Of a DNA stretch of 64,000 bases, positions 4,422-22,314 are shown one piece after another. The first letter of the stretch is position 1. Each line of letters opens with the position of its first letter. The DNA comes from Calothrix sp. PCC 7103. Lineage in GTDB: Bacteria > Cyanobacteriota > Cyanobacteriia > Cyanobacteriales > Nostocaceae. The DNA lies in NCBI RefSeq assembly GCF_000331305.1, contig NZ_KB217478.1, positions 7,156,317-7,220,316 on the forward strand, written 5' to 3'. Under the pieces are notes generated by a model, which saw only the letters and a program-made list of their open reading frames with translations, had not been told where the DNA came from and made no database searches. The translations under genes were made by a program, and so were the position numbers.

Positions 4422-4952
4422 ATGGGTTTATTAGCGCGTCAGGACTACAAAGTTATTAATCTCTGGGAAATTGACGCGCAGGTAGCCTTTAATGGATTGT
4501 CTTCTCTGCTACCATTTGTACCAATTCTCAAAAATGGTGGTAACGAAGCAACAATTGAGCAAGCATTACGAGTACTGCGTGCTGATGAGCAATTAGAGCA
4601 ATTTGAAATGCTCCTAGGTTTTTTTGCTACATTTGTGTTAGATAGTCCATTAGTACAACGTATAATGAGGTTAGATATGGCAGTACTACGAGAATCTCCT
4701 TGGTATGAGCAAATTCTTAGAGAAGGTCAGCAAATAGGTCAGCAAATAGGAGAAGAAATAGGTGAGCAACGGGGTATTTTATCAGCAATTGAATTAGGAC
4801 TGGAGTTAAAATTCGGCGCCGAAGCATTACAATTAATGGAATCTATTTCTCAAATCTCAGATTTAGAGCAACTTAAAGTAATTAAAGACGCAATTAAAGT
4901 TGTTGTTATTTTGTTCAAAGCGCAGAAGTTCAACTTGGTATACTGCTTTTAA
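4422..4952 (+). pseudogene. Broken Rpn/PD-(D/E)XK transposase-like gene (central part only)
   Basis: This resembles the C-terminal half of cyanobacterial Rpn-family (recombination-promoting nuclease / putative transposase) proteins: NLWEIDAQ, SLLPFVPILKNGG, a segment ending MAVLRESPWYEQILREG, then a QQIGQQIGEEIGEQRG repeat and LELKFG. The N-terminal nuclease core with its catalytic residues is absent, so the copy is 5'-truncated. The 3' end is also wrong. Homology-like sequence stops near residue 158 (about 4900), and the last 18 codons are the antisense of the truncated dpdD. The gene is a remnant joined to the Dpd island by a rearrangement. Confidence 0.65.
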
Positions 4953-5642
4953 TAATGCGATTGTAACGGCAAATGGTTTTTTTAGCTGTAAAAGATTGCC
5001 AATTTCTGGAAGTTGTAGTAATTCATTCCATTGTTCTAACTCTGCTAAAAGTTGCACACGCAAAAATAAAAGATTGAGCGCATCTAAACGGTGTTGGTTA
5101 GCAAGGTACTGTAGTTCTTGTTCTGCACAACTGCGGGTGCCTGCTTGTAGTGCCATATAAAAATCCCGCAGTACTCTACCTGTTGGACGGGGAATTTCTC
5201 TATTATGTTTGACACAGCGCGCGCTTACTTGGCGCATCCGTTCAAGTGCTTGCCAAATTTGAGAGGAATCTCCGTTAAATTTTATTGCATTACCTTGTGT
5301 AAATTCATTAACTGCCTCTTCTATAGGGTCTCGTAAATTTAGTTGTGCGGTTTGTCCCCGATACGTTGAATAAGTTGGGCCGACAAATGCCATTAGTTCT
5401 TCGCTTAAACGACGTAACTGTTTTGGTGAAAAAGCAATGCCATACCAATCTACCTGATTGTTTTTTGGGCGCCAGCATGGAAGGATGGTAGGTTGAGCTT
5501 CACTTTGGGTCAACAACTCTACCCAAGGTCGAATTTTTGCGCTTTTTCCTTCGGTACGCTTAATCTTGTCTAAATCAAATTTATTACTGGCGCCGAAAAA
5601 CTGTTCCAGAAAACGAAGAGTCCTAGCATTGCTTTTATTCAT
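4863..5642 (-). CDS. dpdD: DpdD-like protein, apparently 3'-truncated
   Basis: Dpd systems place 7-deazaguanine bases in host DNA and restrict unmodified DNA; DpdD belongs to the restriction set and its activity is not known. I assign this gene from its place after dpdK (12 bp) in a Dpd-like operon and from segments such as RPTGRVLRDFYMALQAG and RLDALNLLFLRVQLLAELEQWNELL. No enzymatic motif is seen. The last 17 or so residues (Asn-rich, then low-complexity) read into the antisense of the Rpn-like fragment, and 259 aa is short for what I recall of DpdD, so the C-terminal part seems lost. ATG at 5640-5642 is preferred over the adjacent GTG. Confidence 0.55.
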   Translation of the reverse strand: MNKSNARTLRFLEQFFGASNKFDLDKIKRTEGKSAKIRPWVELLTQSEAQPTILPCWRPKNNQVDWYGIAFSPKQLRRLSEELMAFVGPTYSTYRGQTAQLNLRDPIEEAVNEFTQGNAIKFNGDSSQIWQALERMRQVSARCVKHNREIPRPTGRVLRDFYMALQAGTRSCAEQELQYLANQHRLDALNLLFLRVQLLAELEQWNELLQLPEIGNLLQLKKPFAVTIALLKAVYQVELLRFEQNNNNFNCVFNYFKLL

Positions 5643-5654
5643 CACTGTTTTATC

Positions 5655-6164
5655 CTACACAACTCCCCAACGACTGCCAAAAATCAACTGTTGCTCGGCA
5701 ATTACTTGTGGTGATGTATCATAAGTTAACGCTTCCTCGTTTACAGTTATACCGTTATAAGTAAAATTCATAGAACCAGCTAGATAATACCCGTCTCCTA
5801 AAATACCTTTAGAATGAAGTTCCTCTGTACTATGCACTTGACAATTAACACCATCAGTTTTGATTAGAAGTGCTTCTATGAAACTACGGTTATGTTTATC
5901 TGGACGAGTTGCAACATGTACTATGGTTCCTCGCTGAGTCAGGGTAGTAAGAATTTGAGAAAGTAAAATACGCGAACGACTCCAAGACGGTTCCAGGCAC
6001 ATAAACGAATTACTAGTATTATCTATAACTTGGATATCGGATATCCACGGTGAAACAAGCCATATACATTTACTAGGAGTAAGAAGTTCTGCAACGAATA
6101 TAGCTTGCAGCAAGTTAGGAACTTGACGAGAACTTAAGCGAGAGTGAATATACCGAGAAGGCAT
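5655..6164 (-). CDS. dpdK: DpdK, phospholipase-D-like protein of the Dpd cluster
   Basis: A small PLD-superfamily protein (169 aa) with a single HKD motif: H117, K119 and D124 in HSKGILGD, followed by the typical GSMNFTYNG. PLD-fold proteins with one HKD motif usually dimerise to form one active site and include phosphodiesterases and nucleases. In Dpd systems this protein is a candidate DNA nuclease of the restriction set. The N-terminal WLVSPWISD is the usual first strand. It lies 26 bp after the 132-aa gene and just before dpdD. The catalytic residues are intact, unlike its damaged neighbours. The symbol rests on motif plus context. Confidence 0.7.
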   Translation of the reverse strand: MPSRYIHSRLSSRQVPNLLQAIFVAELLTPSKCIWLVSPWISDIQVIDNTSNSFMCLEPSWSRSRILLSQILTTLTQRGTIVHVATRPDKHNRSFIEALLIKTDGVNCQVHSTEELHSKGILGDGYYLAGSMNFTYNGITVNEEALTYDTSPQVIAEQQLIFGSRWGVV

Positions 6165-6190
6165 TTTATTTTATATTTATTTTTTTTAAT

Positions 6191-6589
6191 TTATGGGCGT
6201 AAAAATTCAATAATTACTAAACGCAAGTAGTCTAAATTTCTAATATAAGCTTTCATTTGACCATACTTATCATTACTATCAAAATAAAACTGAGCAACAA
6301 CAGGAATATTAAAAGCATTCATTTCTTGTAACTCAATAATAGCCTCTTGTTCATTTGCAATTTTAGCAGTTGCCTGAATTTGGCTAGCATAACCTCGAAT
6401 ATTTACCGTCAAAAGCTCAATCTGTTCTAATAAACTAAATTCTTCATCCGTACTAGAAAATTGAGACGCAATTTCTTTTCGTTCCTGTTTTGTATGATGA
6501 TAATCATTTGTTAATTGATTTAATAATTGAGTTATATAATTTATTCTGATTTCAGGACTTTGAGTATTTAGCGGTGCTTTAGTCATCAT
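6191..6589 (-). CDS. Small hypothetical protein in the Dpd cluster (132 aa)
   Basis: Not recognised. The first 85 residues are predicted helical and rich in Gln, Glu and Leu, probably a coiled coil. The C-terminal part is strand-and-helix with VAQFYFDSNDKYGQMKAYIRNLDYLRLVIIEF. Its start overlaps the end of the upstream 77-aa gene by 11 bases, so the two are probably translated together. dpdK follows after 26 bp. There is no signal peptide or membrane segment. Its position suggests a Dpd accessory or partner role, but this is inference only. Confidence 0.6.
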   Translation of the reverse strand: MMTKAPLNTQSPEIRINYITQLLNQLTNDYHHTKQERKEIASQFSSTDEEFSLLEQIELLTVNIRGYASQIQATAKIANEQEAIIELQEMNAFNIPVVAQFYFDSNDKYGQMKAYIRNLDYLRLVIIEFLRP

Positions 6590-6812
6590 TCACTCCATAA
6601 GTAACTATTTTTTCAGTACCAAATTTATCAGGTCTTACAATTAAATATTCATTCCCTTTCCGGTAGACTGCTGAACCATCTCGACGATACCCAGATTTCG
6701 GAACCCTTACTGCTCTACTTTTGTTAAAATTATGAGCTTTCCGCAAATACTTAAGTCGGTCGAACTCTTTTCTAGTACCGCTTGGCGCAAGTAAGTATAC
6801 CATTGTAATCAA
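6579..6812 (-). CDS. Small basic hypothetical protein in the Dpd cluster (77 aa)
   Basis: Not recognised. The sequence is basic (many Lys and Arg) with KYLRKAHNFNKSRAVRVPKSGYRRDGSAVYRKG, which would suit nucleic-acid binding. An internal Met at residue 4 (6803) is an equally good start. It overlaps the 132-aa gene by 11 bases. It is separated from dpdJ by a 224-bp gap with a palindromic repeat, so it may start a second transcript that includes dpdK and dpdD. Confidence 0.5.
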   Translation of the reverse strand: MITMVYLLAPSGTRKEFDRLKYLRKAHNFNKSRAVRVPKSGYRRDGSAVYRKGNEYLIVRPDKFGTEKIVTYGVNDD

Positions 6813-6982
6813 CGAAAATGCTGCGGTTTATAACCCTTAAAAAAGGTCTATACATTTACGCCGTTGTGTACTAGAAGCATGGTCTAGAATACTATGAGAT
6901 ACAGTGATATAAGTCGAAGGTTATATACTGCCTTATTTCGGCAACTTCTACCTTTGTATATCCAAGGCTTTATATCAAAAAT

Positions 6983-7029
6983 GTTGGGTTGAGGAACGTA
7001 AACGTAGTTTTCCCGAAGGGAGACCCAAC
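6983..7029. repeat. GTTGGGT...ACCCAAC palindromic repeat
   Basis: GTTGGGT (6983-6989) and ACCCAAC (7023-7029) bracket a GAGGAACG-type core. Relatives occur at 31496-31525, 35250-35279, 36153-36180 and 37332-37362. This copy lies just after the dpdJ stop and could act as a terminator or boundary element. Confidence 0.65.
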
Positions 7030-7036
7030 CTACGGT

Positions 7037-10000
7037 TTATTGTACTATTTCTTGTACCCTTAATCTGACTGCAAATCCTTGTGGATATCTAATGACTCCT
7101 TCTACAAGTGGGTAAACTTGTAAGAAACCTAATTCTATTGGTTCTGTAACTAATTGTAAGATAGCTAGTTTCAATTCTTCTAGTGCTTCTGGGGGCCCAA
7201 TTAATAGTACTGACATACCGCAATTAAATGCTGTTTCTATTTGTTGGCGCCAGTCTGTTTCATCAAGCATAATTATACATTCTGAGGCTTGTAGTACGTT
7301 GAGTAAAATTTCTCTATCAGGTTCCGGGAGTGCTATAAACGGGTTATATGAGGATAAAGCACGCGAACTAATGGTGTTTCCTCTTGCCCATAATAGCCCG
7401 TAAATGACTTGAAAGCGCCAATAAGGTAATGGTTGAACTAAACCAAGATGCTGTAATGCTTGGTCTAAGTTGTTATTATTACTAGCTATATAAGCAAATA
7501 CTCGTGCATCAATTTCAATACCTAAGCGTGCTTCTTCTTGATGCCATAAATGAATCAAGTCTAGTAATAGTTTATCGGTTTGGGGTGTACTTCCGGGACG
7601 TAAAATTCTGGCATTAATTGCTGTGATAACGGGATGTGTAACTAATATTCCTTGCTCAGATAAAGTTTGACGTAGATTATCACTTGCTTGTTTTAATTCA
7701 CTATACCCCGAAGCTGTGCGCGCGTCTGCGATTGCATAATTAATTTCATCGTTAGTTTCGATTAATTCAAGTAACCGTGTAAGTTCTAAGTCTACTATTT
7801 CAAAGTCTGAAGGTTCTAATGCACTTGTTGCCAAGCGGAAAAAGTTTGCTGGGTCTATTGCATACCTTGCTAATATTTCTTCGATGACTCCACCACCACC
7901 TATGGTAGATTCGGTAATCCAAATTTCGTGTATTTGTTCTGTATTATCAAGTTTATCAATAATAGGGGCGTCTGCATCTATATCTAAAATTAAATCGTCG
8001 ATGTCAAATTGAGGACATAATTGTCTACATGCATCGAGTAATGCTCCTCCTAATGTTGACTTGAAACGTAGTACTAGCCATTGTTGCCACTGTTCATCAG
8101 ACTTTAACCATAAAATTGGCGCCAGATTATTTAATCTACTTTGAATTTCAATATTATTGCAAAGCACTAACAGTTTATCATGTACTTTCTGGCGCCCTTC
8201 TACTCTATCTTCGTCTGTTTGCCCATCTTCAAGCAAAGTTTCCTCAATATTTAATGTTTGGAAGATATTTTCTAAAACGTTTGCCATTTGTAGACCGATC
8301 TCTTCTGTCTGTAAAATTTCCCATGCTTGCTGTAAAGAAATTTGGTCAGTAAGCGCACGTGCGGTTAGCATTGATATATATATTTGATAAAGCCACTCGC
8401 GCTGAAAGTAGTTTGTGAAATAAAATAGTTCCACGTCGTCCAAAACACAATATCGAAAATATGCTGTGCGAGATGACCCGGAAGTGTGGGTAAGGGGTGA
8501 AGGAATGCGAAAACGAAATACTAAACCGTCTACAGATTGAGCAAACCCCACTGCTGCGGGACTATTATCATTACCAACAAAGTTAATAGTAGTAACAAAT
8601 TCTTCACCTTTTTGGTAATATATAGTGGCATGAGATGCTATTGCAAATCGTCGCACCTCAATTGGAGATTGTTGAGTGTGGGTAAAACAAGCAATTTCTG
8701 TAATCAGTTTGCTCCAAGGCGAACCTTTGGGTATTTCAAGAACAGTTCCAGAAGGTGGTATTATTTGGCTATGCCATTCTAATATCGCATTTGAAGTTAT
8801 AGAAATATTTCCTGGAATTTGAGTTGGATTAATTGCCCAAGGACGGTAAGTTGGTATATCTACAATTTTCCCATGTTGCCACATCTGAAAATTTCCAACT
8901 GCTTCAAGTTCCCTACAGTATTGTGTTATTGGTAATATTTGTTCTCTGTCTTCAAAATTGAGTGGAGCAATCCAGTGACTAGCACGGATGTGTTGTACTC
9001 CAAAACGTCGTGATGCTCTCCCTGGTGCAAAGGTTTTCAGTGCTTGAACCATAGGCATTATATTAGTATCTGGGTTACTGTTTTTAGTTTGGGGAGGTGT
9101 TGTAATTATTACTTCTGGTAATAGTAAGTCGCTAAATAAATTAGAAGTGACAAAATCTGGTAGGGGTGCAAAGGGAATTCGATAATCTTCTTCTGTATCA
9201 TTGGGGTTAACAGGAAAGCATTTCCAACCAGATTCTAAACGACGCAGCAAAGTAGGAAGTGCTGCCATCATTAATGACCTTGGTGGTTCCCAAAGTATTG
9301 TTTCGACTTCTTCTTGAGTTAAATTTAGTGTTGCTTGTAGATATAATTCAAATTCGCGTTGCGCTGCTTCATTTTCAAGGACATTCTTTATTAAGTCGAT
9401 TTCTAAGTGTTGACGCTTGTTATCGTATAATGCTGGTGATGCAAAGTCATTCCAAACACTGCCTTTATTTGTATTAACTAGCTTAATAGCAACCCAATCC
9501 ATAAAAGCATAAACAGCTTGAATTCTAATTACATAGCGGTTGGCAATTGGTAGAAAGCGTTTTTCTAAAATTGGACTAAATAGCATATCGTAATTTTGAT
9601 AAGCTATACGGTCGCGTCCATAATCAGAAAGTACTACTACAGTCCAAGGTCGCATCGTTCTTTTTCGTCCTGCACGTCCTTTTCGCTGAAGAAAAGAAGC
9701 CATATCGCGCGGAGCTTTATGCTGAATTACACCTCCTACATCTGGGTCATTAAATCCGACTTCTAACGATGCGGTAGCAACGATTATATCTGCATCTAAA
9801 GCTACTCCTGTGTCTTGGGAACTTGTGCGTCCAATGCTTAAAGGAAGTTCTAAAGCATGACCGATTTCTTCGCACATAAACCAAGATTGACCATAAACTA
9901 AACGTTCTCTATTCTCAGCATTACCACGTGCGCGTAAAGCTGCTAAAGGTAATCTTCCTCTAATTGGGCGCCCCCAACTATTTTGTGCTTCAGTATCTAA

Positions 10001-10324
10001 TAAGTTATGAAACAAACGATTTGTAACATCTAAGTCATCAGTAAAAGCAAAAACACGTGAACCATAAAAGTCTTTGCTCAGAGGTTCAACATTAGGGTCT
10101 AATACACGTCTTAATAATACTGCCGTTAATATACTACTTGATAATAAAGTAGTACCTGATACAGGGTCGCCTCTGAGAACAAGTTGATATTCCATCCCTT
10201 CAGCAATTAAGTCATCACCAGGATATATTTCTTCAACCCGACCTAAATTTAAACCAGTAAGTTGGCTAAAAAATTCTGCTGCGCTTTCTAATGTTGCCGA
10301 AAGTCCAGTATATTGAACTTTTAC
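7037..10324 (-). pseudogene. dpdJ: DpdJ helicase lacking its N-terminal ATPase motifs
   Basis: The frame is open from 10324 and its first residues are VKVQYTGLSATLESAAEFF, which is helicase motif III (SAT). Motifs V and VI follow (VATASLEVGFND, then QRKGRAGRKR), then a long C-terminal region of about 850 residues. Walker A and the DEAD/DEAH box should lie upstream of SAT but are absent: a stop codon (10325-10327) precedes and a different small gene ends at 10339. No ATG, GTG or TTG occurs between 10322 and the ATG at 10195. The coding sequence is thus cut at its 5' end, by deletion or misassembly. If translated from 10195 it gives 1052 aa, which cannot hydrolyse ATP by itself. The DpdJ name comes from motifs and position. 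Confidence 0.65.
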
Positions 10325-10338
10325 TTAATTTAATAATT

Positions 10339-10509
10339 TTAACTAATTTGGGAGTGTTTTGTTCGTTGAGGTTGGGCTGCAATTTGGGCATCGAGGTGTG
10401 CAATTAGTTTATCCATCATCTCGTTTGCCTGAGCTATCTCGGCGCGAGTTGTCCTAAGATTTTCAAGATGTTTTGCTCTTACTTCTGCTGGTGCAATTGC
10501 TTTATCCAT
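10339..10509 (-). CDS. Tiny hypothetical protein, translationally coupled (56 aa)
   Basis: The ATG at 10507-10509 overlaps the TAA of the upstream 113-aa gene in a TAATG arrangement, a strong sign of coupled translation. The product is helical and mixed-charge (MDKAIAPAEVRAKHLENLR at the start; HLDAQIAAQPQR near the end). No family is recognised. It ends 15 bases before the truncated dpdJ frame, so the lost dpdJ start may have lain just downstream of it. It could also be the intact head of a longer protein cut by the same event. Confidence 0.5.
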   Translation of the reverse strand: MDKAIAPAEVRAKHLENLRTTRAEIAQANEMMDKLIAHLDAQIAAQPQRTKHSQIS

Positions 10510-10850
10510 TATAACCCCCAGTTATTTACTACTTCCTCTATACTACGCGACCATGCTGGAATTCTGGTTTCTATATAGTCCATAGTCTCTTCTAACATCG
10601 TAGCAGTTGCATTATCAGCCTGCAGTTTTGCTGTAGCGGTTCTTATTGTGATGGTAGTTAACCTTTGATCGCTATTTGTTACATCTAAGGCAAGATTTGT
10701 AAGTTCGTCTAAATCTTCTATAGTATCTTGCCTTTCATTGTATGCTCTAAATAGTCTATATTCTGTAGACTTGGCGATATTGACGAGGTTTATTAATTCT
10801 CGACAATTTAACCAAATTCTATTATTAATTTCCTCTGGTATCGTAGCCAT
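10509..10850 (-). CDS. Small helical hypothetical protein in the Dpd operon (113 aa)
   Basis: Not recognised. It is all-helical by composition, with several ITIRTATAKLQADNA and DYIETRIPAWSRSIEEVVNNW segments. The spacing from the upstream 234-aa gene is two bases, and it is coupled to the next gene by TAATG. It has no membrane segment. By position between DpdH and DpdJ it could be part of, or a partner to, DpdI. Confidence 0.6.
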   Translation of the reverse strand: MATIPEEINNRIWLNCRELINLVNIAKSTEYRLFRAYNERQDTIEDLDELTNLALDVTNSDQRLTTITIRTATAKLQADNATATMLEETMDYIETRIPAWSRSIEEVVNNWGL

Positions 10851-10852
10851 AT

Positions 10853-11557
10853 TTAAATTAAGCGGATTTTTAATGAATCTGAGATATTATGTTTATTAAT
10901 CCAATCTTGGACTTCTGGAGTTAAAAGACTTAAAGAGGCGCCTTGATTTGCAGCATCTTTAAGTAGTCGTAATACAGTATCTGGTACTTCATCTGAATTT
11001 AAACTATTCCAGCATAACTTTAATTGTTCTATCTTACGTTCATATTTTTCAAATTCGACATTATTTTTAGGAAAATTAATATCTTTTATTTCCTTATCGA
11101 AAATACGTATTTCTTGAACCGTATATTTAAAAGCTTCTACTTTAGATAACACATTTAGCATTTCATTATTTGTACTGGGCATTCTTTGCTTGAGATAAAT
11201 ATTCCATGCTTGACTTAATTGCTGTTCTATTGTATTTTTTAGACCTCTTATACTTGAGATAAAACTGTTTGCTTTAAAATTATTATTTTCAATAATCCAC
11301 TCAGGATTTTGCCGAAATTTTTCTTCAGCTTCAGCAATAATAGCTACTAGAGAGTCAACTTTGGGAACCACATCAAAATTTGCTAGCTCTCGTTGCCGAA
11401 ACGCACGCACAGCTTCAACAATTGGTTCAATCATCGTCAAAGCGTCAGTTATCTGCTTTTGCCTCGATTGGAATGCTTGAAGATTATCAGCAATTCTTTG
11501 CTGAGTTTCTTTCTGCTGGCATAAATCAATCAATTCTTGAGATTTACTAATGAGCAT
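10853..11557 (-). CDS. Coiled-coil protein following DpdH (possible DpdI)
   Basis: A soluble, helix-rich protein of 234 aa with heptad-like stretches at about residues 5-110 (LIDLCQQKETQQRIADNLQ and onward) and 150-190. No catalytic motif is visible. It starts five bases after the dpdH stop, inside a run of tightly packed minus-strand genes. In described Dpd clusters DpdI is among the restriction proteins and has no clear function; the position fits, but I cannot confirm the identity by sequence, so no symbol is given. Confidence 0.6.
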   Translation of the reverse strand: MLISKSQELIDLCQQKETQQRIADNLQAFQSRQKQITDALTMIEPIVEAVRAFRQRELANFDVVPKVDSLVAIIAEAEEKFRQNPEWIIENNNFKANSFISSIRGLKNTIEQQLSQAWNIYLKQRMPSTNNEMLNVLSKVEAFKYTVQEIRIFDKEIKDINFPKNNVEFEKYERKIEQLKLCWNSLNSDEVPDTVLRLLKDAANQGASLSLLTPEVQDWINKHNISDSLKIRLI

Positions 11558-11562
11558 TACAT

Positions 11563-14500
11563 TTATCCTTTAATTTCATTCAATAAATTTTGAAGTTTAG
11601 CCAAATCATCTTTTATTCCTTGATGACAAGAATTTACTGAACCTTGTCCTAATTTTCCTAAATCACCAATTTTATTTTTTGCTTCTAAAGTCGAAGCTTC
11701 AAGAAATCTATCTGTCTGATTCAAAAAATCTTTAGAATCACTAATTACCTTTTGAAAATCTTCACTCAGATAGACGAGAATTTTACCTCTCGCATTTTCC
11801 GCTTCTTTCTCTGCTTGGATACGTCTCATATTTTCTTGATACTTAGTAATTGCAGTACGACGGAATTGATCAATAATTTTATTGATGTCATCAATGCTTT
11901 TGACACCACGTAATACTCCTGCTATTTGTGCATTTTGTAAAGCACAATTTACTGTATCAATCACTTCTTTCTTATTGAAATTTTCACCTAACTCTGATAC
12001 TAACAGTTGGTAAATTTCAAATTGACGTTGGTATTCTTCTTCAATGCTTTTTTCAAGCAGTTCATCTACATCTTTACGAGCATTATAAATTTCTGAAAAT
12101 TTATCACTAACATCTTCTGGAATCTCACACTTAGGTTGCCAGGATTTTCTGATGTTTTCTAAATGATCAATAATTTGGATGGAATCAATAATTTGAAAGT
12201 CTCTTGAGCTACCTTTAGTACAAGCAATTCGAGTTTGAACAATTTCTAGTAATTCATCACGGTGTTTTTTCAAAGATTTAAACAGCTTTTCCCAACTCTG
12301 ACTACGACCTGTATCGTTTCTATCTAAATCTAGAAATAACGCATTAATGAAGTTTTCCAGAGAATTAGTAGGGTGTCCTCCCATTGTTGCAGCAATTGCT
12401 AAAAGTTCTACTGCTGCTGGAACTGGGTTCCAAATTTCTCCAGATTCTCTAGGATAAAGACGAATTGCTTTCAATACATATTGGCTCCATTTTTCTAGAA
12501 GTTTGCTATAGGTAAGGAAATAACGGTCTCCGTTGGGAAACTTCCAATTTTTGTGGTGACTATATAGTAAAATTCCTTGGAATGCTACGGCAGTTTCAAG
12601 AAACTCGCTCTTATCATCAGGGTTAAGAGGTAATAGTAACTTTACACCAAAAACTTTTTCTCTTGAAAACCTCGGACTAGAAAATTGAATATTTTTCTGT
12701 TTAAAATACTTACTTGTGTTACTAGCAAAAAAATTTTCTAGTAAAAGTTCATTATCCAACTGGATTTTTTCAACTATTGCAGGAAAAAGAAAGGTGCGTA
12801 TATTTTGTGATATGTCTTGAGGTAATATTGATTCGTTGTTCCAGTTATCCAGAATTTTTAGCTTTTTTTGTAGTGTTTCTGGAATTTCTGGTTCTTTATC
12901 AACTGATTTTGGTTCAGTTATATAACTTCCTCCAGCTTCAATTGCGCGTGGTGTGGGAAGATTATTTTGAGGGTTTGGAATGGTACGTTTATTTTCGGTT
13001 TGCTGAATTTTGGCGCCGAGAGTTGGTAGACTAAAAGCAGTATGAACAGAAGCAGGTAGGTCGCAAAGCTCATCACTGTCAGTCCATAAGTCTATAAGTA
13101 TCGCACGTCGCTCAGTATTATAAGGGTCTTTTGTTCTAATATCTGTTTGGAGCATAGTATTCAAACGCACCTTACCAAAATGCTCTCGTAAAGTCACAGA
13201 TGGGAAATTACCTTTCTTAATATCATTGAACCCATTTTCTAAAGTATACTTTAGTACATCTTTAATGAGAATGCGGGGGTTAAAGTTACCTGTATTGACA
13301 CGATTCCACATTTGTTCTAAAGCTTTGGGTGTGAACGGATATAATCCCATGTCGTTAACATTCCCAAAACCTGCATGACAAGCTTCACGATGTTCGCAAT
13401 CGTTACACGCACTGACGATAGATTCTTGTTGAGAATCCTCTTCTTGGTTGTTTTTGGCCCAGTCGGAGATAACCTGATTTTCTAAACGAACCGTATTTAG
13501 GTATCTAGACACAAACTCTTGAATATCATCTTGGGTAATTAAAGATTGATTATCAACTGTACCAATATCGAGGTTGACACTAAATGTAATACGCTGTTGA
13601 ACGGTATCGATTAAACTTTGAAAATAACCTGTAGTACAAGCTAAAGCAGTACGAATTGCACACAAAGGTTTACTTCCTGGTTGTTGTGGTCGAGCTAATA
13701 CTGCTTCTAACACCTCTCGGTCAATACCTTGTAATTTCGCAAAATCTTCAATTAGTAAAACTAACTCAACACCCTGCTCTGCTAAAGTTTCACGCACTTC
13801 ACGCATTAATCGCTGCAAGTCTTCCCGACCTAAGCTAAGTACTTGTTTGATAGCTTCGTTAAGATGTTCGTTCAACCACTCGACTGTAGTTTTTTGAAAA
13901 CTTTCATTACTAATCAGAAAAGTATAAAACTCTTGGGTTTTTGCCGCTGACTTTTGCCAGTTAAGGATATCAATGGGTAAGTCTTCTATCGAAAATCCTT
14001 GTCTTTCTTCGATAATTTCGACTTTATCTTTATATCCTAATGTATGAGTAATGAGACGATGAATAATACCATCATCTTTTAACCAATATTCACGGAAAAA
14101 AGGGTCGTGTAGAAAAGAGTCGAGTTTTTCAACAAGATAATTTTGCTCGTCAGTAAGTTGAGTTATATCTCGGTTTCCATTATGACTCGATGCTGCTGCA
14201 AGTTCGTTAAGAAGTCTCACCCTTGCTTGAGTTTCCGTTAACGTATAAGTTGCTCGGTTCACACGTTCACGGTATTCATCAAACCTTTCTCCTTCCACTT
14301 CATTAAGAATGAGAGTAATAATATCTTTTAAATTTGTACCAATTTTTGGAATTAGTAGCACTTTGCGTTTCTCGGTTGATTCGATATTCGCATCTAACCA
14401 ACGAATTAAGTGCGACTTTCCAGTACCAGAACCACCTAAAACTGGTACAAAGGCAAAATCTTTTTCGGCAAGAAAATCTCTAAGAAACTGCTGCTCATTG

Positions 14501-14658: not shown

Positions 14659-15566
14659 GATTTATCACCCTGCCAAATAATATGAGAAATTCGTCCAGCA
14701 TCATCAACTTGGTTATTAGCCTTTGGTAATATCATGATGTCAGCATCTGACTCCCTCTTCATCTCGATATAACCTTCTGCACGTAAACGAAACAAAGCAA
14801 AAGCAGTACTAGTAGAAAGGTAATTGGGTTGACGTTGCCCAATATTTTTTTCGATTTCGTCTCGAAATTTACCTGTTTCAAATAAAGGACACTTTATAGC
14901 TAATTTATCAATAAATTCTTGCATGAGAAGCTTTGTACCGACTTCTTGATTAAATACATCTTTTAACTTTCGTCTTATATATAGTGTCGGGTCTGGAACG
15001 GTCACTCTTTTTGTTCCCAATTTATGACCCCAAGCTAAACCCATGTAGCACATCCAGTTATCCATAGAGTCATACAAAAGGTTGCTAGTCATTCTTAAAA
15101 AATCTCCGACTTGTTGGTTGTTAACTTGAGTTTGCACTGCTTCCCAATGTCCAGGTGCATCATATATATCCTGTGCTAAAAACCAAGCACAAGCAAGACC
15201 AAAGTCTTCTTCGTCTGCATTATCAGAGGCAAAAAGTAAAGTCGCAAGAGTATCTGGTAATAAAGCATCACCACTTTTTGGACTACGTGCAGGTTCTGGT
15301 AAATTTTGATTAATACCAATCTCGTCGTCTTCTTTTACTAAAAGACCACACTTGACACATTGACCTAACGTTTCATTAAACATTACATGTGATACTTTTT
15401 CCTCTTTTGATATTTCTTCAGATAAACGTCGCTCCAATAACTTATCAGGAGAAAGAATTTGCTCTAATATATCTCTTTTTTGCTTTTGGTTTTTTACTTC
15501 AAGCAAATACCTAAAAATACCTCTAACTCTACTTGGTATTGCTTTTGGAGTTTTTAAAAAGCTCAT
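14655..15566 (-). CDS. dpdG: DpdG, restriction-set protein of unknown activity
   Basis: About 303 aa. I take the ATG at 15564-15566 (MSFLKTPKAIPSRVRGIF), which overlaps the dpdF stop as ATGA; an in-frame ATG lies 18 bases upstream inside dpdF. A Cys pair (QCVKCG, about residue 81) may be half of a zinc site. The rest is helical, including a C-terminal winged-helix-like segment TSTAFALFRLRAEGYIEMKRESDADIMILP, which suggests DNA binding. Its place between the RecQ-like and P-loop genes with four-base overlaps on both sides indicates a strictly coupled dpdF-dpdG-dpdH unit. Confidence 0.7.
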   Translation of the reverse strand: MSFLKTPKAIPSRVRGIFRYLLEVKNQKQKRDILEQILSPDKLLERRLSEEISKEEKVSHVMFNETLGQCVKCGLLVKEDDEIGINQNLPEPARSPKSGDALLPDTLATLLFASDNADEEDFGLACAWFLAQDIYDAPGHWEAVQTQVNNQQVGDFLRMTSNLLYDSMDNWMCYMGLAWGHKLGTKRVTVPDPTLYIRRKLKDVFNQEVGTKLLMQEFIDKLAIKCPLFETGKFRDEIEKNIGQRQPNYLSTSTAFALFRLRAEGYIEMKRESDADIMILPKANNQVDDAGRISHIIWQGDKS

Positions 15567-18100
15567 ACCCCAATCTCCATACAAAATGAATCAAATTTAA
15601 AATGTCTTCCCGAAAAAACGTCAATCATTTTTCTATCATTACGATTCGGGTCAGGTGTATCTATAGATAATAAAATAATCCTTGGCGTCTGTGGCATACT
15701 ATTTTTTGATATATAAGATAAAGGTATTTTTTCTCCTTGAGAATGAAAAATAAAAGTTGCAACACGCGGCATTTTTAGCGGTTGATAATTTGACCACCAA
15801 AAAATGAAACCATTTTGAATTAGATTGACTTCTTTTATAAAGTGTTCCCTAAATTCATCAGGAGCTATCACATTTTTAATATTTTGCTCTAGCAACCATT
15901 TAAAAACTCTATTAATCTGACGCTTTTTACCTTTTGCTTCCAAAGAATCATAAAAAATTAACAGTAAATTCTCACCCCACAGCAATCGTTCGAGTTCTTC
16001 ACCCACAAAAACACTTTTATTGTGACAAACAGGACTAGGTTCTGGCATAATTCCAGTAAAAGGTTTAATTCTTTTTTCTCGACAAACAGGACAACCCCCG
16101 CAAGTACGAGAAACTGTGACTTTATTTTTAATTCCTTCTGTACCCTGGAAAGAAATGGTATATGCTTCTTGAAATATTTTTGACATGCATCGTTTAGCTT
16201 TCAAAGCTTCTATCATTAGATTGATATTTTTATGACTCAAACTTTGACGTTGCTGACGAATCGGTTCTACTTTAAATTCCCAAGTAACTTTATCCAAATG
16301 AGATTGGTTACGAATACTAATAATTCTATGATTTCGGTAATTTCCCCATGCTTGGTTATATACCTCTTCTAACTCAAAGCTTTTTTTCAAAGGTGGTTCT
16401 TCAAAGTCGATTTTAATTAAACCTGCTCGATTCATTAACGTTAAGGTACGGATATTCCAAGCTCGATTTGCTTTATTCTCGGTTCCCCTCATATCTATAT
16501 CTTCTGGTAGTAAAGAGGGGGGTGTATTAGTAGGAACACGAAATCTACCATCACTTAAAGGAGTTTTGTTAGCGAACATATTTTGCCAACGCTGTAAACC
16601 TCTTTCAACAGTGATGGCTGATTTTTCATTAACTCCACGAGCAATTTTGATATCAGTCTCTGTATACAGCGTTAATGAAATTGAAGCTTTACCGTCTCTT
16701 CCACCTCTACCAACTTCTTGATAAAATCTGTCAATAGTTTCAGGCACACAAACATGAATAACTGCACGCACGTCTGCTTGGTCAATACCTAATCCAAATG
16801 CAGAAGTTGCGACTACTATATCTATTTTTCTATCTCGCCATTTTTCAATTAGCTGTAATCTATCTTTAGGACTAGATTTACCTGTCATCAAGTCGCATCT
16901 TGTAAACCCTGCACATGCAAGTTCCTTTTTCCATTTTTGAACATCTTCAACTTTGGTTCCATAGATAATCAATGGACGTGGAAGATTATATACTGCTTCA
17001 ATTAATCTTTCTTCCCTAACTTCTTCGTCTCTACACTCGTTAAACCAGTACGAAGGTTCTGGACGTAACTGTACGGCAGAAATTACTTTTAGGTCTTTCC
17101 CAAATAATGATTCTAAGGTTTCTAGGCAAGATTCAGTAAGAGTCGCAGTTAGTAGTAGTGTTGTAAAAGAACCAAGACGTAATAAATCTTTTCGCAAACC
17201 TGGAATTTCTTGGAAAGCAGGACGAAAATCATCTCCCCACTGCTCGACCATGTGCGCTTCGTCGATGATAAAGTACTTTAACGTTCCTTGCTTTGCCGCT
17301 TCGTATAACGCAGGCGCCAGTGAATCCATTAAACTTTCAGGAGAGGTAAAAATAATCCTTTGAGTACCTTCACGAATTCGTGTGCGTATTGCCTCACGTC
17401 GTTCTTTTCCTTCTTGGCTACCATCACTGTAATACGCCGTATCATGCTTAATAATAGACTTCAATCCTTTTTCTTGGTCTATCGCTAGTGCTGTTGTTGG
17501 CACTACTACTATACTTACACCTCTATGTTGCGAATTTAACAAAGCTGGTAACTGCGCGCAAAGGCTTTTTCCTGAACCAGTAGGTAGATTAATTATCAAA
17601 GTAGCATCAACAGGCGCCGTCAAAATACTATGAATTGCACTTCGTTGACCAACACTGCGATATTTATCTAAATTCACTAGCTTTAAAAAAGGGTCTCCTG
17701 CAACATAATCATAATTTCGTCGCAGTTCTTCTTTAAAAACAGGTTTATCAGGAGATTCATTAAAAAAATCTAACCATTCTGGTTTCCAGGGACGCGCGCT
17801 AATTGTGTAATATTCATCATCGTCACCATTGAAAATTGTTATACTACTTTTTTCCAAAACTTCACGCTTTGGAAAAAGAGGTTTACGAGATATTTTTATA
17901 AGAGTTGAAGAACTTCCACCCTGTTTTTCATCTTCTCGTCGCAGTACATGACGTACTAAGCTCGCAATGTCTCCCGCAGCAGCATTGTTAAGTAATGCAT
18001 CGAGAAGGCGCCGATGACAAGGTTCTGTAATATGTCTTGTATCTTCAGGCACGTCACCTGTTCTAAGAATTTCTTGCAGTTCCGTAAACGAATCTGTCAT
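15563..18100 (-). CDS. dpdF: DpdF, RecQ-like DEAH-box helicase
   Basis: A superfamily-2 helicase of 845 aa. Q-motif-like VGQRSAIHSIL is near 150-160, Walker A LPTGSGKS at 172-179, DEAH at 280-283, TAT motif III (LLLTATLTES) near 318, motif V SAFGLGIDQADVRAVIH and motif VI YQEVGRGGRDG. A Cys cluster (SRTCGGCPVCREK) later in the protein resembles a zinc ribbon. The layout matches the RecQ-like DpdF of 7-deazaguanine restriction systems, including the DPFLKLVNLDKYRSVGQR lead-in. It heads the tight dpdF-G-H run; 827 bp of repeat-bearing spacer separates it from dpdE. All ATPase motifs are intact. Confidence 0.8.
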   Translation of the reverse strand: MTDSFTELQEILRTGDVPEDTRHITEPCHRRLLDALLNNAAAGDIASLVRHVLRREDEKQGGSSSTLIKISRKPLFPKREVLEKSSITIFNGDDDEYYTISARPWKPEWLDFFNESPDKPVFKEELRRNYDYVAGDPFLKLVNLDKYRSVGQRSAIHSILTAPVDATLIINLPTGSGKSLCAQLPALLNSQHRGVSIVVVPTTALAIDQEKGLKSIIKHDTAYYSDGSQEGKERREAIRTRIREGTQRIIFTSPESLMDSLAPALYEAAKQGTLKYFIIDEAHMVEQWGDDFRPAFQEIPGLRKDLLRLGSFTTLLLTATLTESCLETLESLFGKDLKVISAVQLRPEPSYWFNECRDEEVREERLIEAVYNLPRPLIIYGTKVEDVQKWKKELACAGFTRCDLMTGKSSPKDRLQLIEKWRDRKIDIVVATSAFGLGIDQADVRAVIHVCVPETIDRFYQEVGRGGRDGKASISLTLYTETDIKIARGVNEKSAITVERGLQRWQNMFANKTPLSDGRFRVPTNTPPSLLPEDIDMRGTENKANRAWNIRTLTLMNRAGLIKIDFEEPPLKKSFELEEVYNQAWGNYRNHRIISIRNQSHLDKVTWEFKVEPIRQQRQSLSHKNINLMIEALKAKRCMSKIFQEAYTISFQGTEGIKNKVTVSRTCGGCPVCREKRIKPFTGIMPEPSPVCHNKSVFVGEELERLLWGENLLLIFYDSLEAKGKKRQINRVFKWLLEQNIKNVIAPDEFREHFIKEVNLIQNGFIFWWSNYQPLKMPRVATFIFHSQGEKIPLSYISKNSMPQTPRIILLSIDTPDPNRNDRKMIDVFSGRHFKFDSFCMEIGV

Positions 18101-18410
18101 AAATCATCACTGGTTAATTTATGTATAATATTTATCTATCCAGTTTAAGTAATTTAACTAATACGATTAATATTAGCCAAGTGTATTCATCAAAAAAATA
18201 TTAAATCCGGATTAACTCTAGATAAATTTTTTGTAACATTTTATTTTGAGAACTGCCAACTGTAATTTTTCGTACTCGTAATACTACTTGCACTGGATGC
18301 TTTGAGAATGATAACGGCGCCAGCAGTTTAATATTTGTAAAAATAAAATCAGTAATCTTGGGAAGTAATTATACATCTTATGATACATCTTGTGATGCAT
18401 CTTGTGGGAT

Positions 18411-18465
18411 GGGCATCCCTGCCCGTCCATTAAATTTCAACATTACAAACGGGCAAGGATGCCCG
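18411..18465. repeat. Inverted repeat GGGCATCCCTGCCCGT / ACGGGCAAGGATGCCC
   Basis: Arms 18411-18426 and 18450-18465 match with one mismatch over 16 bp. Each arm is itself partly palindromic. Relatives are at 18892-18909, 22450-22467 and 27906-27924, so this is a dispersed repeat of this genome. Confidence 0.7.
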
Positions 18466-18814
18466 TTCCAGAAGAGAACAAGATGAATAAGATAACAAGA
18501 TAAAATAGGGAATACACAATTTTATAGGAACTAAAATTAGGTGCGTCAGTTATTTTGATAAGGCAAATGTACTAATCCAGGCTTATCAACAATAAGTAAA
18601 ATTTAAATTGCACTAGCAGCTAAGAAAAATTATCGCACTCTTATGACTCTAACATGTACTGTTGTAATTTTGCCACAAGGGTGATGTAAGTATATAATTG
18701 CTTATAATTTTTATAAACGTATTGCTGTACATGGCTTTTTGCCCATACTCAAGACGCCGTACTTTGCTTTTCTTCTCTGTGTTGAGTGTGTCTTTGTGGT
18801 AAAAAATAATAGTT

Positions 18815-18872
18815 GGTGCGTGACGCTATAAGTCTATAACTACGTTGAAATTTTTTCGTGGCGTCACGCACC
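18815..18872. repeat. Inverted repeat GGTGCGTGACGC / GCGTCACGCACC
   Basis: Perfect 12-bp arms at 18815-18826 and 18861-18872 around a 34-bp loop. It is related to the repeat at 873-933. It lies downstream of dpdE on the minus strand and could end that transcript. Confidence 0.7.
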
Positions 18873-18891
18873 CTACATTTGAATGTTACAA

Positions 18892-18909
18892 ACGGGCAGG
18901 GATGCCCGT
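18892..18909. repeat. Short palindromic repeat ACGGGCAGGGATGCCCGT
   Basis: A near-perfect palindrome 19 bp left of the dpdE stop codon, same family as 18411-18465. On the minus strand it follows dpdE, so it may work as a terminator hairpin with the neighbouring GGTGCGTGA repeat. Confidence 0.6.
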
Positions 18910-18927
18910 TCCACAAACATAGGACTT

Positions 18928-21900
18928 TTACCAGTCTTCTACTTCTCCTCCAGCAATGGGAGGGCGCCCGGAAACGATAATGAAACCTACGGAGTCAAGG
19001 CGAATATTTGGGTGACGGATACCTTCTATTATTGCTTGGTTGAGTTTGGCTTCTTCTACTACTTCTTGGGTGAGTGTTTTGTCAATGAATTTTTCTTGTT
19101 GTTTAATACGGTTGAGACGTAAACGTAGTTGTTCGAGTCGTCTACCTAGTTTTTGTTCTGCGTTTTCTGCTGTTTTTTCGCACAGTTCTATAAAGTTATC
19201 TTGGCTAATTAGTAACTCTACAGATGCGTTACGCGCGTCGCGACAAAAATCTTGCCAATCGTCTGGGTGTATAAAGTTATCTAGTATTGGCAAACGACTT
19301 TTTGCTAGGTTGTAGTCTTGGTTGTTGGCGCCTTTTGGAGGTGTTTTGCTAGCGGTTTTAGCGGCAGCTTTATCGGCAGCTTTGATTGGCGGTTTAATTG
19401 GCGGTTTGCCTTTGCCTTTGTATTGGCGTTGTAATATTTCTAACAGCGCTTCGTCTTCAACAATGCTCATTGGCTCGTTGCGTGCGTCGATAAAGATACT
19501 TTGGATGATTGGTGGAAATAAGCTATCTGCACGACGTTGTAATGTTTTGTACTTGATTGGGTCTATTTTATAACTACTTAAGTCGGTTTCGATAATGTAG
19601 TCAAATCTAAAACCAAACCATTCAGCACCTTCGCTCTTGTCCCAAGTATCATCAACTCGCCACATGGCAAATGCTTGACCTCGGTCATCCCAATGTATAT
19701 AAGATGATAATGAGTCGATTAAACCTTCACCAATTCGATAAAGGTTGACGTTGGGTTTTTGATTGGCAACTCTTCGGTTATATGTACCTGTATCGTTTGT
19801 TAATCCCACGAAGTAAGTTCTCAAATCGTCGATGGGTATTAGGGTTTTCTGTGTTGGTTCATAACGCTGTGCTGCTGAGACGTTTGGGTCATTTAGCTGT
19901 TTTAACCGTAAAGCGTTACATAACCAGTCTTCGGTGACTCGCTCGATTTCTTGGTGTTGAGCATCAAAGTTATCTAAGCTTTCAAAGTACTCGCTAGCTA
20001 TTTCATCGAGAGCGTTAATTTCATCTAAGGTGTTTTGCTCGTCTATTTTAACAAGCTCGGCGCCTATTTCTTGTTTAACTTGCTCTACACTTTCTAATAG
20101 CCCATTTGCCCCAGATTTAAACAAGGTTGCTTCTAACTGTGGCAATTTCTCGTCTACGTAAAATTGGAAGCTCGCTATCGACTGCTCAAAGATATTAAAT
20201 CCATCTTTCAACAACTGATACCATGCATCGTGGGGACTGTCATCTATCTCGGCGCCTGCGAATACTGTAAATTCTACATTCAACTGGCGCCCAATACGGT
20301 CAATTCTACCAATTCGTTGCTCTAAACGATTTGGCGACCAAGGCAAGTCAAAATGTATCATCGAGTCAGCATATTGCAAATTACGTCCTTCTTCACCCGA
20401 ATAGTCGCAAACCAGAATAAAGCAGTTAGGGTCATTTTTAAATCTATCAAGACTCTTTTCTACTTGCGCTCTTGGTTCTCCGAGTAAATGACTCGCAATA
20501 CATGATTCTCCAAAGCTATCTCGCAAAAACTTAATGATTTGAGCGCAAACTTGCACGTAACTGGTAAATATCACTATTTTTGGTAGCTTATCCCCAGGTA
20601 TTGGTCTTCTTAACCGTAGTTGCACTTGCTCGAGTAACTTAGGTAAATTACTACGGAACGATTGGAGTTTAAAGTTTTCTGAGAGCTTATAAAGTATTAC
20701 TATTCTCAGTAACACCAAACGGTCGCCATCTTCTGAAGGTTTCTCAAGAATTTTTAGTAAACCTTGTAAAATTTCCTCTTCCTTGTCGAATTTGGGAGTT
20801 TCAGTCAGAATATTCAAACTATCTGTGTCAAACTCTTTTGTCAACACTTGAGGAAAACTACCCTTCAAACGCGCTTCGAGAACTTGCTGTAAAATTCCTA
20901 ACCAAGTACCACTGGCACGGAACAATAGTAAAAAGATGCGGTGATAGTTTGAGTTATCAGGCGCCAGTCCACGCCATTCTTCCATTAACTCGTGAATGTC
21001 GTAAACACGCTCATCTAAATCATACTCAGCTTTCGGCGCCACATTCCTGTCAAAAATTACATCCTCCACAGAAGCGCGACGATTACGAAGCATTCGACGG
21101 TAAAGTCTATAAGTATCGCTAATATGAGTACGAATCGCTCTAACTATTTTATTTTCGTTACCAGTTTTTTCTTGTAAAGAATTTTGTAGCTTTTCTGCCA
21201 AATCTGATAAGTATTTATCTTCGGGAAATAAACTGCAAAGTTGTGTAACTTGATTTTTGAGAACGAAAGGATTTGCACCCTCTTGAAACGACAATAATAC
21301 TCGACCAATATCTTGACGCTTTGCCACTCTGTCACGGAAACCTTCCAAATCATCTAATTTATAATTTGTCGGGTCGAGCAAATGCAACATTGACAAAAAA
21401 TCTTCCTCGTTGTTGACGACAGGAGTCGCAGAAAGTAATAGTAACCGCTCTGACTGGTGAGCAAGCTTCTTAAAAGCTCCAAAACTGCTGCGCTTTGTTG
21501 CATCCGTTGACCTTGCCATCGCTGCTACGTGATGAGCTTCATCTATAATTATTAGCCCAATATCAGCTTTTGCATTAACTTTGTGAACATCCTCAACCGC
21601 TGCTAATACTACCCTATCGGGAAAATGCGACAGATAAAACTTATTCTTCAACTCAGTACGCCACTGTTCGAGTAAATACTGCGGCGCCAATACTATCGCG
21701 CGTCTCTCTGGGTCATCGAGTAAATATTGACGCAAAATGGCGCCTGCTTCAACCGTTTTTCCTAATCCGACCTCATCAGCTAACAAATATCGTTGAATAG
21801 GGTCTTCAAGTACCCGACGCACAACTTCAACCTGGTGACGCAGCAACTCAATATTCGCAGAAATTAACCCCGTCATTCCTCGACTAACCGCGCGTTGCGA

Positions 21901-22314
21901 AGTTAGGTTTTTCACCAGCGCAAAACGTCTTTGGTGGAAATAAGGCGTTTCTTGACCCTTATACGTCAATATATCGATAGGGTCTTCGATAGGCAAATTG
22001 CAGCGGACATATACATCCCGTTCCCTAGCAAACAAAGTTTTACTGTCAGGCAAATCAATTTGATAGGATAAGTGGTTTTCATCCCAACCAAAAACTCTTC
22101 CTATCAACCATCTATCACTCTCTGACTTTACATAGCACCGAGTTTGACGCTGAAGTGTAACCCGACGCAACTCACTTAAAGGTACTGTTTCCTCAATACA
22201 TTGCCCTACTGAGCAGAAATACTCAACTACTACGTCTTGATTACTATGTTGAACTACCTTTCCCGTACCTAGTTCATTATCAAGCGAACGTACTAGTGAA
22301 CCAATTTGAATCAT
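18928..22314 (-). CDS. dpdE: DpdE, SNF2-family helicase
   Basis: A 1128-aa SNF2/RapA-like ATPase that would move along double-stranded DNA. Walker A ADEVGLGKT is at residues 179-187, DEAH at 258-261, motif III LLSATPVVNNEEDF and motif VI RLEQRIGRIDRIGRQ. An N-terminal beta-rich segment (1-110) precedes the helicase core. A Pro/Lys/Ala linker near residue 970 separates a C-terminal coiled-coil domain. This composition fits DpdE of the Dpd restriction set, though DISARM DrmD is also SNF2-like. It holds nine GGCGCC sites, about three per kb, unlike the sparse dpdF-H genes, hinting at a different residence time. The frame is intact. Confidence 0.72.
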   Translation of the reverse strand: MIQIGSLVRSLDNELGTGKVVQHSNQDVVVEYFCSVGQCIEETVPLSELRRVTLQRQTRCYVKSESDRWLIGRVFGWDENHLSYQIDLPDSKTLFARERDVYVRCNLPIEDPIDILTYKGQETPYFHQRRFALVKNLTSQRAVSRGMTGLISANIELLRHQVEVVRRVLEDPIQRYLLADEVGLGKTVEAGAILRQYLLDDPERRAIVLAPQYLLEQWRTELKNKFYLSHFPDRVVLAAVEDVHKVNAKADIGLIIIDEAHHVAAMARSTDATKRSSFGAFKKLAHQSERLLLLSATPVVNNEEDFLSMLHLLDPTNYKLDDLEGFRDRVAKRQDIGRVLLSFQEGANPFVLKNQVTQLCSLFPEDKYLSDLAEKLQNSLQEKTGNENKIVRAIRTHISDTYRLYRRMLRNRRASVEDVIFDRNVAPKAEYDLDERVYDIHELMEEWRGLAPDNSNYHRIFLLLFRASGTWLGILQQVLEARLKGSFPQVLTKEFDTDSLNILTETPKFDKEEEILQGLLKILEKPSEDGDRLVLLRIVILYKLSENFKLQSFRSNLPKLLEQVQLRLRRPIPGDKLPKIVIFTSYVQVCAQIIKFLRDSFGESCIASHLLGEPRAQVEKSLDRFKNDPNCFILVCDYSGEEGRNLQYADSMIHFDLPWSPNRLEQRIGRIDRIGRQLNVEFTVFAGAEIDDSPHDAWYQLLKDGFNIFEQSIASFQFYVDEKLPQLEATLFKSGANGLLESVEQVKQEIGAELVKIDEQNTLDEINALDEIASEYFESLDNFDAQHQEIERVTEDWLCNALRLKQLNDPNVSAAQRYEPTQKTLIPIDDLRTYFVGLTNDTGTYNRRVANQKPNVNLYRIGEGLIDSLSSYIHWDDRGQAFAMWRVDDTWDKSEGAEWFGFRFDYIIETDLSSYKIDPIKYKTLQRRADSLFPPIIQSIFIDARNEPMSIVEDEALLEILQRQYKGKGKPPIKPPIKAADKAAAKTASKTPPKGANNQDYNLAKSRLPILDNFIHPDDWQDFCRDARNASVELLISQDNFIELCEKTAENAEQKLGRRLEQLRLRLNRIKQQEKFIDKTLTQEVVEEAKLNQAIIEGIRHPNIRLDSVGFIIVSGRPPIAGGEVEDW

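Follow-up and report, generated by a model that had tools for sequence, protein, structure and literature searches.

We analysed a 64,000-nucleotide stretch of the genome of the cyanobacterium Calothrix sp. PCC 7103 (contig NZ_KB217478.1, forward-strand positions 7,156,317 to 7,220,316; hereafter the window), which carries an operon of the Dpd system on its minus strand at window positions 4863-22314. Dpd is an anti-virus system in which one half attacks DNA while the other half marks the cell's own DNA as safe. The operon comprises the attacking half, and full-length counterparts without DpdA, which belongs to the marking half, recur in other cyanobacteria.

Genes of the operon

Ten minus-strand open reading frames (ORFs) of this interval were scanned with Pfam, PADLOC and NCBIfam. 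The NCBIfam equivalog models identified a Dpd restriction operon in the order E-F-G-H-I-J-K-D, with DpdE, F, G, H, J and K above their cut-offs and DpdD and DpdI below theirs, and the PADLOC calls agree. A preliminary description, made from motifs and gene order, had already recognised Dpd here and placed seven genes (E-F-G-H-J-K-D) correctly, but it overlooked DpdI. The features are as follows.

18928..22314, minus strand: DpdE, SNF2/RapA-like helicase, 1128 amino acids (aa), intact (NF041062, 1082.8 bits, cut-off 500; GLGKT and DEAH motifs)
18101..18927, no strand: E-F gap of 827 bp (blastn and alignment of seven genus members)
15563..18100, minus strand: DpdF, RecQ-like helicase, 845 aa, intact (NF041063, 941.6 bits, cut-off 550; GSGKS and DEAH motifs)
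14655..15584, minus strand: DpdG, 309 aa, intact (NF041064, 123.4 bits, cut-off 80)
11563..14658, minus strand: DpdH, AAA-type P-loop ATPase, 1031 aa, intact (NF041065, 927.7 bits, cut-off 450; GGSGTGKS motif)
10853..11557, minus strand: DpdI, 234 aa, intact (NF041066, 42.1 bits, E 9e-11, cut-off 150; same place in the mapped islands)
10509..10850, minus strand: 113-aa ORF between DpdI and the DpdJ fragment, no family match
7037..10195, minus strand: DpdJ fragment, residues ~451-1502 (NF041067, 1276.4 bits, cut-off 800, profile positions 438-1482 only; tblastn)
6191..6589, minus strand: 132-aa ORF in the variable J-K interval, no family match
5655..6164, minus strand: DpdK, phospholipase-D-type nuclease, 169 aa, HKD motif intact (HSKGILGD; NF041068, 211 bits, cut-off 100)
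4863..5645, minus strand: DpdD remnant, residues 1-245 of ~751 (NF041061, 228.8 bits, cut-off 300, profile positions 1-242 of 704 only)

Six proteins (DpdE, F, G, H, I and K) retain their full length, and the motifs of the four that were checked (E, F, H and K) are intact. The best solved relative of the window's DpdE is RapA; AlphaFold left the fold of DpdG unresolved (mean predicted local distance difference test score, pLDDT, 52), and its model of DpdH is likewise poor (mean pLDDT 42). DpdI shares 40-61% identity with its positional counterparts in other islands, and 96% with that of one congener (G030). Annotated Dpd islands on a Nostoc C057 plasmid, in Agrobacterium and on the Enterobacter plasmid pPOL9A have the same gene order, with an unnamed protein in the place of I; on pPOL9A, dpdB and dpdA come next, in convergent orientation. 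An Rfam scan of window positions 1-32000 matched no RNA element.

DpdJ is a YprA-family helicase, a feature shared with DISARM and YprA-helicase systems (PMC12458937, which also mentions uncharacterised Dpd-like classes), and DpdE resembles DrmD and BrxH. The Dpd models nevertheless score far higher than those of DISARM (1082.8 bits for DpdE against 173.2 for DrmD).

Deletions in dpdJ and dpdD

Damage to dpdJ and dpdD, suspected from the outset, is real in both genes. By tblastn, homology to DpdJ covers residues 409-1502 only, residue 409 falling at window position 10321, and residues 1-408 are missing; because the homology starts only there, the window's DpdJ has lost helicase motifs I (Walker A) and II (DEVH), which stand at 197 and 382 in the full-length DpdJ of Calothrix HK-06 (G076). 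DpdD has lost about its last two-thirds (residues ~246-751): compared with congener G030, 1668 bp are missing at about window position 4904, and the remnant is fused to the neighbouring gene. Both losses arose by deletion. With J and D broken and E-I intact, the window's copy has lost at least part of its function and may have been reduced to the E-I form that is found alone elsewhere. The loss of J and D is no proof of inactivity, because other genomes, with no DpdJ over the cut-off, retain E-I.

Modification genes in the genome of the window

The operon had been described as E-K plus D without A-C, and the window indeed has no TGT, DpdA or DpdB match. The accompanying suggestion that the modification genes lie elsewhere in the genome found no support: a search of the whole assembly (G000; 12 contigs, 11.58 Mb in total, completeness 100) with the DpdA model gave nothing at E<=0.001, and the best DpdB match reaches 21.8 bits against a cut-off of 300. 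The TGT family (PF01702) is represented by the housekeeping Tgt and by one 33-bit paralogue 1.4 Mb from the island. This paralogue (C7:5731209) is unlikely to act as a DpdA in trans, with 27 bits against the DpdA model, a different operon and no general occurrence. It is preceded by genes for an M78 peptidase, two unassigned proteins, a metallophosphatase (SbcD-like) and an SbcC-like protein (L114:8963-9988; C7 near 5731000), possibly a separate defence operon.

An N6-methylase-like gene (923 aa) and a 342-aa, weakly metallo-beta-lactamase-like partner occupy window positions 24109-27905, the methylase lying 1.8 kb upstream of dpdE. The methylase gene is also found near dpdE in congener G115. 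We rejected it as the missing self-marker, as it occurs in 4 of 15 genomes searched and is absent (G127, G019, G066) or broken by an internal deletion (G076) in four genomes with full-length Dpd sets.

DpdA-less sets in cyanobacteria

We searched 192 genomes of the window's taxonomic family with profile models at NCBIfam cut-offs, and added a phylum sample of 386 genomes and a scan of named genome contigs. Within the family, DpdE is over its cut-off in 87 genomes, DpdH in 19 and DpdA in 16; DpdH and DpdA occur together in seven, so that 12 of the 19 DpdH genomes are without DpdA over the cut-off. The phylum sample yielded 11 DpdH genomes, five of them new (two with DpdA), and the named contigs yielded 12 DpdH loci, two from further genomes and neither with DpdA. 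In total, 17 of 26 DpdH genomes are without DpdA over the cut-off. DpdB exceeds its cut-off in none of the 26, and its absence is uninformative in cyanobacteria because it falls below the cut-off even in DpdA-bearing genomes. Separately, 9 of the 16 family genomes with DpdA are without DpdH over the cut-off (G001, G005, G058, G097, G120, G125, G144, G153, G158) and could possibly hold modification-only islands.

Gene maps resolve the DpdH islands into three forms. In DpdA-bearing islands, a DpdA fusion protein is followed mostly by a gene for 275-330 aa and sometimes by one for ~91 aa, and then by E-I, J, a variable interval, K and D. The C-terminal part of the fusion is DpdA and its N-terminal part has a weak YaaA-like, DpdC-like stretch (23 bits), from which DpdC seems to be fused to DpdA. 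The fusion is full length in five of the nine DpdA-bearing genomes (G078, G189, G037, G280, G215), truncated or split in three (G035, G088, G040) and, in G136, split ahead of a complete DpdA domain. The island of G280 has J at only 216.8 bits, below the cut-off, and no recognisable K or D nearby.

The second form runs from E onward without A, and is full length in Calothrix HK-06, Dulcicalothrix desertica PCC 7102 (G127), G012, G019 and G066. Full-length DpdA-less E-F-G-H-I-J-K-D sets thus span four genera, two of the genomes being congeners of the window's; a further full-length set lies on the Nostoc C057 plasmid, of which 35 kb were read without a DpdA match. The third form consists of E-F-G-H-I only, in G073, G099, Tychonema LEGE 06208 (G369), G304 and Spirulina subsalsa (G537), in pieces in G027, and as a partial F with G-I in G506, across three families (f1, f6 and f14) and Spirulinaceae. 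A genome search found no DpdJ over the cut-off in these genomes, and neither DpdK nor DpdD was seen past DpdI in the 23-27 kb examined in G073, G099, G369, G506 and G304 or the 2-3 kb in G537 and G027. Because contig ends, short flanks and the loss of E-G (in G113) affect others, the cleanest cases are G076, G012 and G066 for the full set and G073, G099 and G304 for E-I.

The same maps gave several observations on neighbouring genes. Two DpdA-bearing islands (L072:5360-8804 and L070:5294-8760) carry the DpdA fusion, a 91-aa gene and a 275-aa protein whose motifs look TGT-like by eye, with no DpdB over the cut-off; the fusion and the 275-aa protein are perhaps a two-TGT enzyme. The TGT likeness of the latter was seen by eye and in a weak 46-column hhalign match, and PF01702 misses it. 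In G035, G088 and G040 (L092, L094, L103) DpdA is cut C-terminally and DpdE N-terminally, with genes for 322 and 186-189 aa between them; downstream genes are open in G040 and some are broken in G035 and G088. DpdI of G037 (L082:12464-13858, L105) has an extra N-terminal domain that resembles a DEDD/RNase D exonuclease by eye. The dpdJ-dpdK interval (e.g. L082 to L088, L098) holds variable cargo such as kinase-like and 1008-aa genes, and is a possible insertion hotspot inside the operon.

These distributions bear on self-modification in trans, in which a divergent TGT, a methylase or a phosphorothioation system would mark host DNA and the Dpd complex would read that mark. G127 has a 67.0-bit match to the DpdA model (C59:3090-3659, a 320-aa frame; cut-off 200), G000 has its extra TGT paralogue by SbcCD-like genes and the methylase-like gene near dpdE, and DpdA-bearing islands hold the further TGT-like protein that PF01702 does not see. 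A second, weak PF01702 match occurs in four of the 17 DpdA-less genomes (G000, G030, G127 and G369), the other 13 having the housekeeping Tgt only, and 12 of the 17 lack both a second TGT and any DpdA-model match at E<=0.001. With the patchy occurrence of the methylase beside full-length sets, these figures make marking in trans unlikely.

Constraint and diversification

Selection was estimated as the ratio of nonsynonymous to synonymous divergence (dN/dS, Nei-Gojobori) and trees were built with FastTree. In the DpdA-less pair G012/G019, dN/dS is 0.16-0.23 across all eight genes (dS 0.30-0.72); the E-I pairs G073/G099 and G369/G506 (four genes) give 0.20-0.33 and 0.22-0.38. Within the window's genus, values are 0.06-0.11 for DpdE, 0.05-0.12 for K, 0.19-0.20 for D and 0.31-0.33 for F. 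The overall DpdA-less range of 0.05-0.38 is similar to the 0.10-0.48 of the DpdA-bearing pair G078/G189, the sole pair compared that has complete DpdA on both sides. Constraint is therefore not visibly relaxed after DpdA loss, although some of the divergence may predate that loss. In the DpdE and DpdH trees, DpdA-less and DpdA-bearing lineages are intermixed, and DpdA was therefore lost or gained several separate times.

These data also bear on whether the DpdA-less islands are decaying remnants that lost DpdA and whose restriction genes are now drifting, with the window's broken dpdJ and dpdD as the typical case. Besides the window, G030 has a DpdF split by a stop and a truncated J, and the islands of G113, G136 and G536 are fragmentary. 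Full-length eight-gene sets exist all the same, including a 1502-codon dpdJ in two congeners, E-I is full length across several families, and dN/dS is like that of the DpdA-bearing pair; general decay is accordingly improbable. Inactivation, which the preliminary description favoured, fits the broken J and D of the window but is only part of the story, as intact DpdA-less relatives recur. Its underlying premise, that restriction without self-modification harms the host unless inactive, fails as a general rule: most DpdH genomes are DpdA-less, and several of their sets are full length and similarly constrained.

Divergence is uneven along the operon. Between G000, G076 and G127, the DpdE protein is 98% identical and the first ~500 DpdF codons keep 87-99% DNA identity per 150-bp step; from the end of F to I identity drops to ~70% (steps 53-89%), and J, K and D return to 85-94%. 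A similar hump is seen in the DpdA-bearing pair G078/G189, with dS of 0.28 in E, 1.06 in G, 1.38 in H, 0.38 in I and 0.25 in J. This pattern suggests that G and H carry the diversified, perhaps recognising, part.

Alternative modules at the DpdE site

DpdE is over its cut-off in all seven genomes of the genus. It is followed by Dpd F-D in four of them and, in the other three (G101, G115, G138), whose DpdE is 86-98% identical to that of the window, by a BREX-like module encoding DUF4007, a 143-aa protein, a protein of ~1800 aa, a NERD-kinase-PglZ fusion (broken in G138) and BrxL (L066, L067, L069). The 1799-aa protein has no useful solved relative and was identified through a Pseudanabaena plasmid as a BrxC4 homologue (39-41% identity). 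Together, BrxC4, PglZ, DUF4007 and BrxL are 39-65% identical to the Pseudanabaena set, which sits in a type-4 BREX cluster with a PAPS reductase and a cysteine desulfurase, and we assign the module to type-4 BREX. The 143-aa protein likewise has a homologue in the Pseudanabaena cluster. It differs in having the NERD-kinase fused to PglZ, DpdE in front, and, over the 53-60 kb read at each site, no tblastn match to either the PAPS reductase or the desulfurase of Pseudanabaena. PAPS reductase is reported in 406 of 457 type-4 BREX taxa, so that its absence is already known (PMC12839542, which covers BREX types and a composite system with TGT). By hhalign with shallow alignments, the Dpd and BREX-like proteins show no homology to each other, and the window itself holds no BREX module.

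The DNA upstream of the module is common to both types: 492 bp are 87% identical between G000 (window 18201-18692) and G138, and blastn gave shorter matches in G115 (310 bp, 76%) and G101 (151 bp, 74%). In an alignment of all seven genomes, similarity fades ~80-100 bases before the first start codon of the module, and the downstream flank of G138 is that of G000. Restriction halves of 7-deazaguanine and phosphorothioate systems thus alternate at one DpdE site, both without marking genes nearby. The DNA of the 132-aa ORF in the window's J-K interval is 75% identical to a stretch 1.4 kb past the BREX-like module of G115.

DpdE could, on the other hand, be a resident recombination anchor beside which modules are swapped with no joint function. 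Several lines of evidence point this way: DpdE is far more widespread in the family than DpdH, 10 of 14 selected loci outside the genus have no Dpd neighbour of DpdE and no neighbour ORF common to more than six of the ten, dN/dS is 0.06-0.13 among five loci without a Dpd neighbour, E and F lie 694-948 bp apart in the genus, and the 23 kb that were read about the type-4 BREX homologues of Pseudanabaena contain no DpdE. E nonetheless overlaps or abuts F in most other islands and belongs to annotated Dpd operons. We regard the anchor as a tentative possibility, doubtful although compatible with a working restriction half. As the lone loci are under such constraint, DpdE also has a role of its own.

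Interpretation

The reading that we favour, at somewhat better than an even chance, is that the island is the restriction half of Dpd and a member of a variant that recurs in cyanobacteria and functions without the 7-deazaguanine mark. Its main supports are observed: the genes and their order, the absence of DpdA and DpdB over the cut-offs in G000, the recurrence of full-length DpdA-less sets and purifying selection. The DpdA-less sets look like working, mark-independent modules, of which the window is a decaying example with E-I intact. In such a module, DpdE (a SNF2-type motor), DpdF (a RecQ-like helicase), DpdG, the AAA ATPase DpdH and DpdI would form a core that finds and processes invader DNA, and DpdJ, DpdK (the phospholipase-D-type nuclease) and DpdD a second effector layer that can be removed. 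The host's own DNA would escape because the complex responds to something other than a missing mark; candidates are DNA ends, replication intermediates, a DNA state peculiar to phages or modified bases of the invader itself. Recognition of something else was among the options of the preliminary description and would fit best of these.

Several points weigh against this interpretation. Restriction, target and self-tolerance of DpdA-less modules are all deduced from sequence. G000 and G030 are two of the four Dpd modules in the genus, and both are decayed; DpdK of G066 reads HAKGILGE at its HKD motif; contigs end near the island in G019, G027, G055 and G536; and in G537 the contig stops 2.2 kb after DpdI. 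Matches to the DpdA model below the cut-off occur in 4 of the 17 DpdA-less genomes, G113 (44.4 bits), G369 (21.7) and G030 (20.1) besides G127, whose island is full length. A divergent enzyme may modify the DNA in trans, because PF01702 misses the 275-aa TGT-like protein. The dN/dS values between old lineages may partly predate DpdA loss and are set against a single DpdA-bearing pair, and the conservation of DpdE alone is no proof of Dpd function because DpdE also occurs alone under strong constraint.

As a special case of mark-independent function, the DpdA-less module might be a modification-dependent (type IV-like) restriction system directed against invader DNA that carries 7-deazaguanine. 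Phages with such DNA exist (PMC6884629), and such a reader would need no self-marking. A cyanobacterial DpdA hit a single phage record, which came from human faeces, the G000 TGT paralogue matched five Sulfolobus virus records, and neither matched a cyanophage, which removes cyanophage DpdA as a support. We consider this special case quite improbable. A broader proposal, which we put forward as speculation and think unlikely to hold, is that DpdE defines a class of mark-free restriction, in which a SNF2-type motor at a fixed site would license interchangeable effector halves (Dpd F-D or type-4 BREX) that shed their marking enzymes, self and non-self would be told apart by DpdE-dependent sensing and not by DNA chemistry, and the five-gene E-I set would be the minimal autonomous form.

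According to a review, eight dpd restriction genes moved into a naive host lowered transformation, and the dpd restriction cluster is described there as presumptive, its activity not further explored (PMC12707154). GATOR-GC surveyed dpd islands and reported one cyanobacterial island, without restriction genes (PMC11888242); because it required dpdA and dpdB, it could not see DpdA-less islands. Our literature search found no description of such islands; the founding Dpd papers lay outside that search and could contain one. The nearest precedent is DndFGH decoupled from DndABCDE, likewise a restriction half without its modification half and proposed as a standalone defence (PMC10853773), though with other proteins and another mark (phosphorothioate); 'Dpd' is absent from the main text of that report. 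Compared with Dpd (dpdA-K) as described, the window has all eight restriction genes in order, but G000 is without dpdA and dpdB over the cut-offs, J and D are broken, and relatives keep full sets or E-I without DpdA.

The decoupling of restriction from modification, reported for Dnd, is thereby extended to a second, chemically unrelated system, and another restriction half, that of type-4 BREX, is shown to occupy the same slot. With full-length DpdA-less islands occurring naturally in named cyanobacteria, the need for the mark, the minimal core (perhaps E-I) and the sensed trigger become testable, and the half-system may recognise invaders differently from the way described so far.

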